Shown here in pieces: positions 21,764 to 25,461 of a stretch of DNA of 28,459 bases. The stretch comes from Anaerolineae bacterium. Its GTDB lineage: Bacteria; Chloroflexota; Anaerolineae; JAAYZQ01. Position 1 is the first letter of the stretch; each line of letters opens with the position of its first letter. A program made the position numbers and the translations under genes. Below the pieces are notes generated by a model. It did not search any database, was not told the origin of the DNA, and saw only the letters and a list, made by a program, of their open reading frames with translations. Location of the stretch: positions 1 through 28,459 of the forward strand of contig JAFGIA010000061.1 in the NCBI GenBank assembly GCA_016929795.1. The letters are read 5' to 3'.

Positions 21764-22945
21764 CTAATCGTTCCTCTTGATCGCCGCCTCGATTTTCTCC
21801 TCGAATATCTCGTATGGATAGGCTCCCACCACCAGCTCGCCGTCGATCAAGAACGAGGGGGTGCCCTGCACGCCGGCTTGCTGTCCTGCCAGCAGATCCT
21901 GGTCGATCTCGTCTTGAAACTCACCGGTGGTCATGCACTTCTCGAACACCGCTCCATCGATATTGAGCCAGCCCGCGAGCTTTTGGAACATGCCCGACGC
22001 GTCGTTTGGTGACAGCCCCGACCACTCCGCCTGGCGTTCATAGAGCGCGTCGTGCATCGGCCAGTAGCGGCCCTGATCTCCGGCACAGCGCGCGGCCAAC
22101 GCGGCCAGCCGCGCGTTCGGGTGAAACTCGAGGGGAAAGTCGTGTACGACATAATACACCAGGCCGGTTTCGACATAGGCATCCTTGATGCGCGGCACAG
22201 TGTTGAGCGCATGTCTCGCACAGTAGCCGCACTGAAAGTCAGAGAACTCCTCGATGACGACCGGCGCCCGGGGATCGCCCATGGCGCTCATCGCGTCACC
22301 AGGCGCGGCGGCGCGTGGCGTGCCCGCCTGTTCGCGCTCTACAGGATAACCGGCCCGCTGCCACGCCGACCAGCCACCCGCCAACGCCGCCACCTGCTCG
22401 AACCCATTCTGATGCGCTGTGAGCGCCGCACGGGCGCTCGCGGATTCACCGCCTCAAGCTCAGTAGAAAATCAGCAGCCGGTCGTCGGGCAGCTCCTTGT
22501 AGCCGCTGGTAGATACCCCGCCCGGCAGCGAGATGGCGCCCGGCAGGTGTCCCTGTTGGTACGTCGCCTCCGTGCGCACGTCGACGAACACGGCTGTGCC
22601 CATCTCGACCTGGGTGCGAGCCGCGTCCACCGCGATGCGCGCCACCTGGTTGAGGCTCGCCACCACCGAGCTGGTAGGCGGGGCGGGGAGTGTCGGCACC
22701 AGCGTGGGCGTGGGTGCCGCCGTGCGCGTGGCAGCCACTCTTGTTGTAGCCGTTGGCAGCGGGGTCGCGGTCTTGACCTGTGCCATTCGGTATTGAACGA
22801 CGGCCGACGGCGATGCGATGGCGCCTGCCGGTTCGGCTGCCGGAACGGCTGCGCCGAGCAGCCAGGCCGCGCCCGCGACGACGGCAAGGAGCAAGATCGG
22901 AGCGAGCCAGCCAATCCACCTGGGATGCGTTTTCGAGTCTTTCAC
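21764..22945 (-). CDS. membrane-anchored rhodanese-DsbA-like fusion read through two in-frame TGA codons (candidate U-x-U selenoprotein)
   Basis: The reading frame starts at a GTG (22945, GAAGG 8 nt upstream, 15 nt after the FHA gene) and encodes a signal anchor (about 11-33), a Pro/Thr linker (to about 95) and the first half of a rhodanese domain: 'VFVDVRTEATYQQGHLPGAISLPG'. It meets TGA at codon 162 (22460-22462) and again at codon 164 (22454-22456). Beyond them the same frame supplies the rest of the rhodanese domain, 'GGESASARAALTAH' and 'VAALAGGWSAWQRAGYPVE', and then a DsbA-like thioredoxin fold with Cys239-Gly-Tyr-Cys242 and Thr362-cisPro363. The TGAs replace the two Cys of the Y-C-x-C active loop of related rhodaneses. 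A hairpin suited to a SECIS follows. I read it as one 393-aa protein, FYUAUGGESASARAA at the active site. The alternative is a pseudogene with two nonsense changes. No sel genes lie in the window. Confidence 0.7.
22421..22439 (-). promoter_or_regulatory. candidate bacterial SECIS hairpin inside the coding region
   Basis: In the mRNA sense, GAGCGCC pairs perfectly with GGCGCUC around a 5-nt loop CGUGC. The stem can extend by CGC/GCG across a 3-nt bulge. The loop begins 27 nt after the first TGA and 21 nt after the second, inside the 16-37 nt range reported for bacterial SECIS elements, and has G at loop position 2. The surrounding DNA is GC-rich, so chance is possible. Confidence 0.5.
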
Positions 22946-22960
22946 GCCAGGAACCTTCTT

Positions 22961-25429
22961 CTAGGGAGCCCAGTCAATGCGCTCCGACTGCCAGCCGGAC
23001 ACCAGCCCGCCGCCCCCGATTGGAAATAGCTTGCGCTGGTTCGAGCCGTCCAGGCTCATCGCCCACACGGCCCACGCCCCACCCTGATCTGAGACAAAGG
23101 CGATTGTCTTACCATCGGGCGACCAGGTCGGCAGCCCATCGTTCGCCGCGTTTTTTGTCAGCCGCTGCAGACCGCTGCCGTCGAGGTTGATCAGATAGAT
23201 CTCCCAGTTGCCCTCGCGGTTCGACATAAAGGCCAGGCGATCGCCATGCGCCGATGGGGCCGTGTCCTCCTTGCGATCCGTCAACTGCTTAAAGGGATGC
23301 GCGCCGGGCGCCGCTGACATGATGTACAACCCGCAGGGAGCCGGCTCGATCGTCAGGTCGCACCCCGAATAGACAATGCGCCCATCCAAAGTCCAGGTCG
23401 GATATTCGCCGCGCACGTCGTCAGGCCCAAAATTCAACGTCCGGCCCTCTAGCCTGCCTCCCTCGAAGGGCACGTCGTCGAGGATATAGATGCGCGACTG
23501 CTTGTCGCCGTGGCGGGTGGAGCTGAATACGAGGCTCTTGCCGTCAGGCGACCAATCAGGCAAACCATCCTCGATGTTGGTCGTGATCTCGATCAGTTGG
23601 CTGCCATCCGGCCGCACGATAAAAAGATTCTGGTGGTCGGCGCGCTCGCCATTGACCGCCAGCCAGTTTCCTGCCTGGTTAATCGCCGGCTGGTGCATCT
23701 CGGCGGTCACCAGCCGGCGCCCGCTGCCGTCGACGTTGGCCAGATAGACGTCGTACTTGCTTGTCTGCTGGTTCCACACAGGAAAGGCAATGCGCCCGCT
23801 GATCTGTGCCGGGCGTGCCGTGGCCCTTGCCTGTCCAGAGCCCTCGGGCGTGGCGACCGGCGTGGGCGCTGAGGCCGCGGGGCTGGTGGCGGTTGGTGTG
23901 GGGGGGGGGACCCCCCTCTCACATAGATCCAGCGCTTCCTGGGCCAGTGGCTGATCTGCGTCCTGCTCCAGTGCCTGGGTATAATACGGTTCGGCGTCTT
24001 GGCAGCGATCAGCGTGTGCCAAAGCTGCGGCAAGCAGGCCATACGTGCTGGCATCGTCCGCACCAAGGGTGACTGCTTGTAGCAGCGACGCGCGTGCCTG
24101 GTCGTATTGGCCGAGGCGATAGTACGCCTCGCCGATCCCTGCATAACTCACCGCCTTGGGCCAGATGCCAAGGGCATCCTGGAAGGCCATGATCGCCGTT
24201 ACGTAATCCTCGGCGCGCAGCAGGAATGTGCCCAGGTCGTGGCGGCGCATCCACTGCTCCGGCTCTAGGCCGGCCGCGATCTGCAGCTCGCCCGCTGCCC
24301 GTCCCATGTCGTTGTCGACGATATGATATAGCCAGCCGCGCACGCGGTGTGCCTCGGCGTTGTTGATGTCCTGCACAAGTGCCAGGTCGGCCTCGTCGAC
24401 TGCCAGTTGGAGCTGTCCATCGAGCATGTATGCCTCGGCCAGCACCGCGTGCGCCACCGAGCTGCCCGGATCCAGATCGACCGCTCCCTGGCCAAAGTCC
24501 ACGGCCTGCTCCACTTCGTCCAGCGCGCTGTACACGCGTGATGCAACCGCCGCGGCCGCGCTGCTGTTGGGGTCGAGCGCAACCGCCCGCTCGGCATGGG
24601 ACAGCGCGTCGGCCGGCCGGTTGTCGAGGACGAGCGCCCAGGCCCACCCGATCTCGGGACGCGCGTCGTCGGGCACGCGCGACGTCAGCTCCTCATAGAT
24701 CGCCTCTGCCTCCTCGAACTTGCTCCTGCGCGCCAGCGCCGCCCCCTGCGTCAACAGATCATCGATCTCGGCGGTGTCGGGTCTGGCCTCTGTTGGGATC
24801 GCTGCCTGCGTGGCGGCGGGTGACGGTTCCGTGGGCGGTTCTGTCGTCATCGACTGGGTAGGTGTCTCGTCACTCACCACCAACGTGGTCTCTGTGGGAG
24901 AGACCAGCCCGATATCCTGCAAGACATCTGGGCGGATCAGAAAGAGGAGCGCGGCGGCAATGCCTACGATCACGACGAGGCCGATCAAAACCAGCCCTGC
25001 AATCAGTCCGCGGCTGACACCACCGCCCTGTGTCGGTGCCGGCACCGCCACAGTTGCGCGTGGCGCCGATACCACTTTCATCGGCGCGGTATCCTGTGCC
25101 GCCCGGCCCGGCTCCTGGTACGTCATCTCGGTATCGCCAATAGTGATCCGTTCCCCATGCTGCAATACGTGATCCTTGGTCACCAGGACGCCATTGACGC
25201 GCGTGCCATTGGCACTGCCCAGGTCGATGAGGATAAAGGCTGCACCTTCTCGCTGCACCCTGGCGTGGTGTCGCGACGACCGGGGATCGCCCAACTGCAC
25301 GTCATTATCTTCTGCTCGTCCGATGGTCACATCCTTCCGCAGCTCAACTTCCTGTACCACCCGTCCTCCCGACCGTATCACGAGACGGGGAAAGAGGGAA
25401 GGATCTACCAACGTTGTCTCACCTGTCAT
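22961..25429 (-). CDS. FHA - membrane helix - TPR - TolB-like propeller protein
   Basis: The 822-aa protein has an N-terminal FHA domain (about 15-107; 'TIGRAEDNDVQLGD', 'SSRHHARV', 'GSANGTRVNG'), which binds phosphothreonine. A Pro/Ala linker and one membrane helix (about 142-165) follow, then a Thr/Pro linker, a TPR region (about 215-510) and a beta-propeller of PD40/TolB repeats (about 545-822) with 'LPDWSPDGKSLVFSSTRHGD' and 'LPTWSPDGKTIAFVSDQGG'. The likely layout is an inside FHA sensor linked to an outside scaffold, which is an inference. The start is ATG 25429 with AAGGAG 6 nt upstream. A 10-C run in the sense strand (23900-23909) codes the Pro-rich joint before the propeller. It begins an operon with the rhodanese-DsbA gene. 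Confidence 0.88.
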   Translation of the reverse strand: MTGETTLVDPSLFPRLVIRSGGRVVQEVELRKDVTIGRAEDNDVQLGDPRSSRHHARVQREGAAFILIDLGSANGTRVNGVLVTKDHVLQHGERITIGDTEMTYQEPGRAAQDTAPMKVVSAPRATVAVPAPTQGGGVSRGLIAGLVLIGLVVIVGIAAALLFLIRPDVLQDIGLVSPTETTLVVSDETPTQSMTTEPPTEPSPAATQAAIPTEARPDTAEIDDLLTQGAALARRSKFEEAEAIYEELTSRVPDDARPEIGWAWALVLDNRPADALSHAERAVALDPNSSAAAAVASRVYSALDEVEQAVDFGQGAVDLDPGSSVAHAVLAEAYMLDGQLQLAVDEADLALVQDINNAEAHRVRGWLYHIVDNDMGRAAGELQIAAGLEPEQWMRRHDLGTFLLRAEDYVTAIMAFQDALGIWPKAVSYAGIGEAYYRLGQYDQARASLLQAVTLGADDASTYGLLAAALAHADRCQDAEPYYTQALEQDADQPLAQEALDLCERGVPPPTPTATSPAASAPTPVATPEGSGQARATARPAQISGRIAFPVWNQQTSKYDVYLANVDGSGRRLVTAEMHQPAINQAGNWLAVNGERADHQNLFIVRPDGSQLIEITTNIEDGLPDWSPDGKSLVFSSTRHGDKQSRIYILDDVPFEGGRLEGRTLNFGPDDVRGEYPTWTLDGRIVYSGCDLTIEPAPCGLYIMSAAPGAHPFKQLTDRKEDTAPSAHGDRLAFMSNREGNWEIYLINLDGSGLQRLTKNAANDGLPTWSPDGKTIAFVSDQGGAWAVWAMSLDGSNQRKLFPIGGGGLVSGWQSERIDWAP
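23900..23916. repeat. G10 homopolymer next to C6
   Basis: Ten G, one A and six C in a row, within the FHA/propeller gene. In the coding strand this is G6-T-C10, giving 'RGVPPPT'. The length shown keeps the frame open across both domains. Such tracts are prone to slippage in replication and sequencing. Confidence 0.9.
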
Positions 25430-25461
25430 GACTTGCTCCTTTGCAGACAAAGTCGAGCCGC

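Follow-up and report, generated by a model that had tools for sequence, protein, structure and literature searches.

The window, the whole stretch of 28,459 nucleotides analysed here, carries on its minus strand a gene of 393 codons (21764..22945) that opens with a GTG start and closes with a TAG stop. Read from 22945 to 21764, its only in-frame stops are two TGAs, at codons 162 (22460..22462) and 164 (22454..22456), both of which we take as selenocysteine (Sec), the first where a rhodanese has its catalytic Cys and the second at a C-x-U position specific to one rhodanese family. All domains of the product follow on the same strand. A hydrophobic N-terminal segment (about residues 10–30, 22856..22918; best 18-residue hydropathy mean upstream of the rhodanese domain, 2.51) is a likely membrane anchor, and a Pro/Thr-rich linker comes next. 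After the rhodanese domain (residues 109–197, 22355..22621; PF00581) stands a DsbA-like thioredoxin-fold domain (residues 221–386, 21788..22285), which passes the gathering scores of both PF13462 (102.4 vs 23.2 bits) and PF01323 (54.3 vs 25.6 bits) and bears its CxxC as a CGYC active-site motif (residues 239–242, 22220..22231) in ordinary TGC/TGT codons. The rhodanese–DsbA fusion would thus be membrane-anchored and extracytoplasmic. Upstream, 15 nt before the selenoprotein gene, lies the gene of an FHA/TPR/PD40 protein (22961..25450, minus strand), and the downstream side holds the NADH dehydrogenase genes NuoG and NuoF, with two plus-strand genes intervening. The gene of an AlkZ-related protein (PF24741; 20900–21748, plus strand) converges on the selenoprotein gene. 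The window gave no match in an Rfam search and no tRNA with ARAGORN. A genome-wide reassignment of TGA was considered and rejected, since eight of the 21 other open reading frames taken as window genes terminate in TGA and none of the 21 has an in-frame stop; the recoding is therefore local.

Standard gene calling turns this locus into two ORFs of 161 aa and 209 aa, so that such genes appear as a rhodanese fragment next to a DsbA-like protein and a fused family is easily overlooked. The original prediction held that the frame codes a complete rhodanese domain only if both TGAs are read as amino acids, and the profile scores agree: the read-through reaches 61.8 bits against PF00581 (E 9.3e-17; gathering cut-off 22.2 bits), the piece before the first TGA only 28.3. 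Two such ORFs are also what a decayed gene would leave, namely a pseudogene whose remnants are a rhodanese fragment and, starting at the GTG at 22393, a DsbA-like ORF of its own, and database entries such as P0036 and P0040 do begin downstream of the TGA position. Against decay, the 393 codons contain no further stop or frameshift, both domains score above their cut-offs, the 7-bp stem of the hairpin described below is intact, and the database proteins P0123–P0127 likewise end at the C-x-U position; we regard a pseudogene as very hard to credit.

How the two TGAs are placed among relatives was read from four rhodanese domain searches. Matches came from 75 of 396 genomes in one class (E ≤ 1e-15), from 60 of 400 genomes in the phylum, a draw that overlaps the first, from 14 of the 15 genomes of earlier loci (E ≤ 1e-5) and from 10 of 13 genomes in one order (E ≤ 1e-10). 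All listed TGA-bearing matches of the class and phylum draws were fetched, and ten stop-free phylum matches were left out; the loci of the 13-genome order were read apart and are excluded from the SECIS, TGA-row and Cys-position counts. Sorted gene by gene on their active-site codons, the sequences comprise 75 C-x-U, 14 U-x-U (the window included), two C-x-C and 45 without TGA, and six more whose TGA lies at another loop codon or solely at the catalytic Cys. The original prediction asked whether homologues show C-x-C, U-x-C or U-x-U; C-x-U is the commonest form, and both U-x-U and C-x-C occur beside it. The 149 aligned rhodanese rows (14,855 residues) hold 109 TGAs, of which 15 stand at column 162, 92 at column 164 and two at column 165, the last two through an alignment shift. 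All 109 lie within the active-site loop, which bears out the view that a chance placement of the TGA pair is improbable. Of the random stops in homologues that the original prediction named as grounds for abandoning it, these rows show two TAA codons, the only stops other than TGA. Most of the 89 Sec-type genes (79) have a lipobox-like motif or hydrophobic stretch by a crude script, which found neither in the group of L183, L186, L187 and L189 or in L179.

The second TGA (codon 164) encodes selenocysteine with high confidence, as judged from sequence, since a known C-x-U rhodanese family (NCBIfam NF041203) has Sec there and since the hairpin is conserved in register with it. When the N-terminal 161 aa served as the query, seven proteins were returned, one of them the window's own; P0123–P0127 stop exactly at Y-C-A or Y-C-S, where the next codon would be TGA, and P0128, a partial record, continues through the loop as C-N-C, without a DsbA-like part. 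Pieces that start after the TGA position came from the full-protein and C-terminal ORF searches (P0036, P0040 and, among those retrieved, P0134, P0136–P0146, P0148, P0152, P0154 and P0155). Another entry, P0129, is a DsbA-like segment identical to the window's, from a second contig of apparently 4,638 nt. Several of these entries (P0036, P0040, P0136–P0146 and others) are named "protein-disulfide isomerase" and resemble downstream halves of TGA-cut rhodanese–DsbA selenoproteins. Cys forms fused to DsbA also exist, namely P0039 (C-N-C) and P0158 (C-H-C). Position 162 is Cys in 75 of the 89 genes of C-x-U or U-x-U type, and position 164 is Cys in P0039, P0128, P0158, L122 and L166, so that at both positions the in-frame UGA stands opposite Cys in homologues, as is expected of a bacterial selenoprotein. 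The TGAs thus do sit at Cys positions, as first proposed, but the family loop is not the "Y-C-x-C" then assumed, the relatives being mostly Y-C-x-U.

The candidate bacterial SECIS (bSECIS) is a hairpin at 22421..22439 on the minus strand, with a 7-bp stem (22439–22433 and 22427–22421) closed by a CGUGC loop (22432–22428), overlapping the codons for A-S-A-R-A-A-L. As predicted, its loop starts 21 nt past the second TGA and 27 nt past the first. The bSECIS model, as described in PMC13188914, has a loop of 3–9 nt, a stem of 4–16 bp, a G in the first two loop positions, a distance of 16–37 nt from the UGA and a minimum free energy of at most −7.5; the window hairpin, with its 5-nt loop, 7-bp stem and G in second place, fits this model for both UGAs. 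Nucleotides 7–45 after the second TGA fold with −15.8 kcal/mol. Folded by itself, the window stretch does not stand out (z −0.87, or −0.12 when compared with synonymous recodings) and is thus uninformative, which is why the case for a SECIS was built on a register-by-register comparison across genes. Counted from the first base after the second TGA, bases 17–21 pair with bases 27–31 around a CGUGC-type loop. All five of these core pairs are found in 14 of 14 U-x-U genes and 70 of 73 C-x-U genes, in three of the six genes whose TGA lies at another loop position, and in none of 46 rhodaneses without TGA. In this count identical 60-nt downstream stretches were taken once, which reduces the 75 C-x-U genes to 73; the resulting 87 Sec-type genes do not include those six.

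The register itself is specific: 84 of the 87 pair in register, none does when the partners are shifted by 1–4 nt, and under random synonymous recoding (2000 draws) 4.6 of the 87 pair on average and never more than 13. At the second loop position all 87 have G, and at the third 84 have U, in genes where CGT makes up 19% of Arg codons and GGT 21% of Gly codons elsewhere. Several stems are altered with the pairing intact, as in L099 (UCAGCC/GGCUGA), L095 and L117 (GUGCC/GGCAC), L103 and L179. Mean folding z against synonymous recoding is −0.90 for the 14 U-x-U genes and −1.08 for the 73 C-x-U genes, compared with 0.08 for the 46 without TGA. The hairpin codes for S-A-R-A-A in 67 of 89 genes, with close variants in the others listed, and this motif is absent from the Cys forms L122 and L166 and likewise, by eye, from P0039, P0128 and P0158; part of the protein motif that lies over the hairpin therefore seems to be set by the RNA.

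The first TGA requires more careful consideration. In an alignment with ordinary rhodaneses, whose loops read C-R-S-G-N-R, position 162 falls on their catalytic Cys, and TGA-x-TGA recurs at the same codons in 13 more genes, one in each of 13 related genomes (L095, L113, L116, L117, L118, L119, L120, L121, L179, L183, L186, L187 and L189). A single clade of these genes and the window was rejected by an AU test (p-AU 0.0007) on 99 rows, namely a 105-row set from which the long-branch L167 and L192, as well as P0123, P0124, P0126 and P0128, had been removed. On a quick tree of about 100 columns with many unresolved forks, the U-x-U label needs 8 to 9 parsimony changes, two of which are forced by well-supported branches. 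U-x-U is present in four of the 13 genomes of one order, where the three closest U-x-U genes differ by dN 0.28–0.32 and dS 1.4–1.9, the latter near saturation, and two pairs involving L187 by dN 0.44–0.46 and dS 0.86–1.5. Such low dN next to large dS implies that both TGAs have been kept across a large silent divergence. One U-x-U genome of that order, G537, also has a C-T-U copy (L227).

The closest comparison is with a fused gene of the genome G064, whose order is represented in the genome collection by two genomes, G064 and G028. This gene (L175/L087) encodes a C-A-U rhodanese fused to DsbA. It is preceded by a TPR/PD40 protein with 66% identity over 418 aa to the window's neighbour, in a piece, L175, that is cut so that the FHA part falls outside, and it is followed by a NuoB-like gene. 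Given the shared upstream TPR/PD40 protein and the NADH dehydrogenase-type genes downstream in both, we take the two genes to occupy the same locus. For the upstream gene, L175:2703-3959 was the one neighbour ORF compared directly. Between the window gene and L087, dN is 0.50 and dS 0.88, a weak sign of constraint. The DsbA-like domain is confined, among 93 Sec-type rows, to the window and this one gene, and no fused U-x-U gene was found there besides the window.

Because Cys occupies position 162 in the nearest relatives, P0123–P0127 and the orthologue of G064, the first Sec of the window looks recent; a single base probably changed not long ago, giving a state found repeatedly elsewhere. The same facts can be turned the other way. 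If the second TGA alone encodes Sec, the first could stem from faulty sequencing or assembly, or from a nonsense mutation of very recent date, in what is truly a C-A-U gene, for a single base separates TGC or TGT from TGA, and in the window's lineage the first TGA rests on one contig. Such an error, however, would have to strike codon 162 and yield TGA, the very codon that bears TGA in 13 other genomes and in four genomes of one order, and in 149 rows none of the 109 TGAs falls outside the active-site loop. We therefore consider a single-Sec gene rather improbable, and read both TGAs as Sec codons.

Whether related genomes could decode them was judged from the Sec machinery. Each of the 13 U-x-U genomes, and G064 too, has a SelA match above the cut-off, and among 14 control genomes only E. 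coli matches. The tRNA-Sec model RF01852 gives matches of about 45–53 bits even where such a tRNA is not expected (all of the 14 controls match at E ≤ 0.001, five of them over the cut-off), so tRNA-Sec was counted only above 60 bits, a threshold picked after the scores had been seen. By this count tRNA-Sec occurs in 11 of the 13 U-x-U genomes and in G064, and it was not found in G343 and G516. SelB is above its cut-off in seven of the eight U-x-U genomes tested, and G064 has a SelB fragment below the cut-off. The eighth, G263, has short SelB fragments only (G263:C1:135772-135897) despite its tRNA-Sec, SelA and U-x-U gene, perhaps owing to assembly frameshifts. As tRNA-Sec above 60 bits is equally common elsewhere (7 of 10 genomes with a C-x-U gene, 9 of 12 in which no rhodanese matched), the machinery permits Sec decoding and does not single out these genes. 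Together with the in-register bSECIS, the 13 other U-x-U genes and the fused C-x-U and C-x-C homologues, its presence in related genomes supports the central proposal that the window encodes a selenoprotein with a U-x-U motif and a fused DsbA-like domain. In the source organism, Sec would then actually be inserted at both codons.

Very probably, then, the gene encodes a membrane-anchored rhodanese–DsbA fusion in which a single bacterial SECIS would make SelB insert Sec at two UGA codons with one codon between them, Sec162 taking the place of the catalytic Cys in the rhodanese loop, with Sec164 as a second redox centre, common to the C-x-U relatives. Most likely Sec162 would take up sulfane sulfur or another electrophile; Sec164 could then attack, freeing the product and leaving a Se–Se bridge, where the C-x-U relatives would form a selenenylsulfide (S–Se), and the CGYC of the DsbA-like domain may trade electrons with that bridge. 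As to whether U-x-U rhodaneses with both UGAs on one SECIS arose more than once in Chloroflexota and form an intramolecular diselenide, coupled here to the fused DsbA-like domain, we see the balance as even. No common neighbourhood hinting at a substrate was found around the stand-alone U-x-U genes (36 of 39 flanking ORFs at the 13 U-x-U loci and L175), where the most shared family among the 25 of 73 listed is Usp, with three members.

The same double-Sec protein could instead have another task, with its U-x-U pair serving as an extracellular binding site for soft metals or metalloids (Hg, Cd, As) and not as a centre of sulfur or redox catalysis. Reducing a diselenide is far more difficult than reducing a disulfide, which would favour either a strongly reducing centre or metal binding and has led us to retain this alternative. 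PMC11818150 describes the CXU, UXC and UXU motifs in the Sec-rich C-terminal domain of animal SELENOP as Cd-binding, and PMC13188914 links most transporter subunits that contain Sec, along with related proteins, to resistance against metals or metalloids. However, the pair lies in a rhodanese catalytic loop, with 162 aligned to the Cys of C-R-S-G-N-R, and the fused DsbA-like domain with its intact CGYC suggests electron exchange. Metal binding seems unlikely on these grounds, if by no means negligible; since it shares the double-Sec claim, its likelihood overlaps with that of the redox enzyme, which we continue to prefer.

Among known systems, NF041203 (rhodanese_LYCAU) is alike in domain, loop and second-position Sec, and differs in having Cys first (Y-C-A-U), where the window has Y-U-A-U and a C-terminal DsbA-like domain. 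The window scores 79.5 bits, under the curated cut-off of 115, lacking the Cys at the first loop position and having Sec at the second; ten relatives given to the same model, the C-x-U genes L089 and L087 included, all fall below the cut-off as well (53.6–97.6 bits), nine of them being domain pieces. The C-terminal domain resembles NF041057, the Rcas_1661 thioredoxin-like (seleno)lipoprotein (DsbG-like, UxxC), at 139.7 bits, under its cut-off of 190, but has a Sec-free CGYC in place of UxxC. TsoB, the rhodanese/DsbD fusion-like selenoprotein of NF045694, shares with the window a rhodanese, a fused redox module and two Sec, yet its motif is UxxxxU (Sec four residues apart instead of one), its partner is DsbD-like, and the window reaches 34.9 bits against a cut-off of 805. 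Canonical rhodaneses (PF00581; GlpE NF001195, PDB 6mxv and 1yt8) share the fold, and their catalytic residue lies at the same place, but their loops (C-R-S, C-A-S) carry a single Cys, with Ser third, where the window has Sec at both places.

The 2026 survey PMC13188914 covers 119 selenoprotein families and subfamilies, and its Table 1 gives rhodanese form 3 with the motif CxU and one Sec. It also contains redox proteins with more than one Sec or CxU, such as ferredoxin-thioredoxin reductase (CxU, two Sec), Prx-like and FmdB-like (UxxU), which have other folds and none of which is U-x-U; its motifs include UxxU, CU, CxU, UxC and UxxxxU, and U-x-U is absent from the portion of the table seen. 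In the open-access literature, among the matches listed and as far as their available text goes, U-x-U is named for SELENOP only, whose C-terminal UXU has two Sec with one residue between them, as in the window (PMC11818150, PMC3281104). That UXU lies in the Sec-rich tail of an animal protein, however, not in a catalytic fold. SELENOP uses a eukaryotic SECIS. The initial claim that a double Sec joined to a CGYC domain had not been described consequently needs to be narrowed: Sec at the second position was already known from NF041203 and from Table 1 of PMC13188914, and what is new is Sec at the catalytic Cys as well. Our verdict, drawn from sequence comparison, is that the window gene is best read as a variant, with two Sec and a DsbA fusion, of a selenoprotein family already on record. 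Related enzymes of C-x-C, C-x-U and U-x-U type can be compared directly, and this natural series allows tests of what selenium contributes at either position and of why a diselenide centre would be retained. It also raises the question of how SelB and one SECIS decode two UGAs six nucleotides apart.

Finally, the searches brought up other placements of TGA in related proteins. In L188, L193, L214 (G474) and L223 (G495), a TGA stands five codons past the Cys (C-x4-U; CIGKTU, CTGATU, CDDFQU), another Sec placement. In L109, L156 and L157, it immediately follows the Cys codon, in rhodanese loops reading D-R-C-U-P, C-G-R-C-U-P and C-S-D-C-U-P. L190 (G586) and L218 (G614) are rhodaneses with Y-U-N-M-Q-H, the TGA being solely at the catalytic Cys, and L215 resembles their Cys form (Y-C-M-M-R-H). 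Beyond rhodaneses, the DsbA-like matches L177 (G064:C466) and L176 (G028:C24) have one in-frame TGA each and are possibly further Sec-containing DsbA-like proteins.
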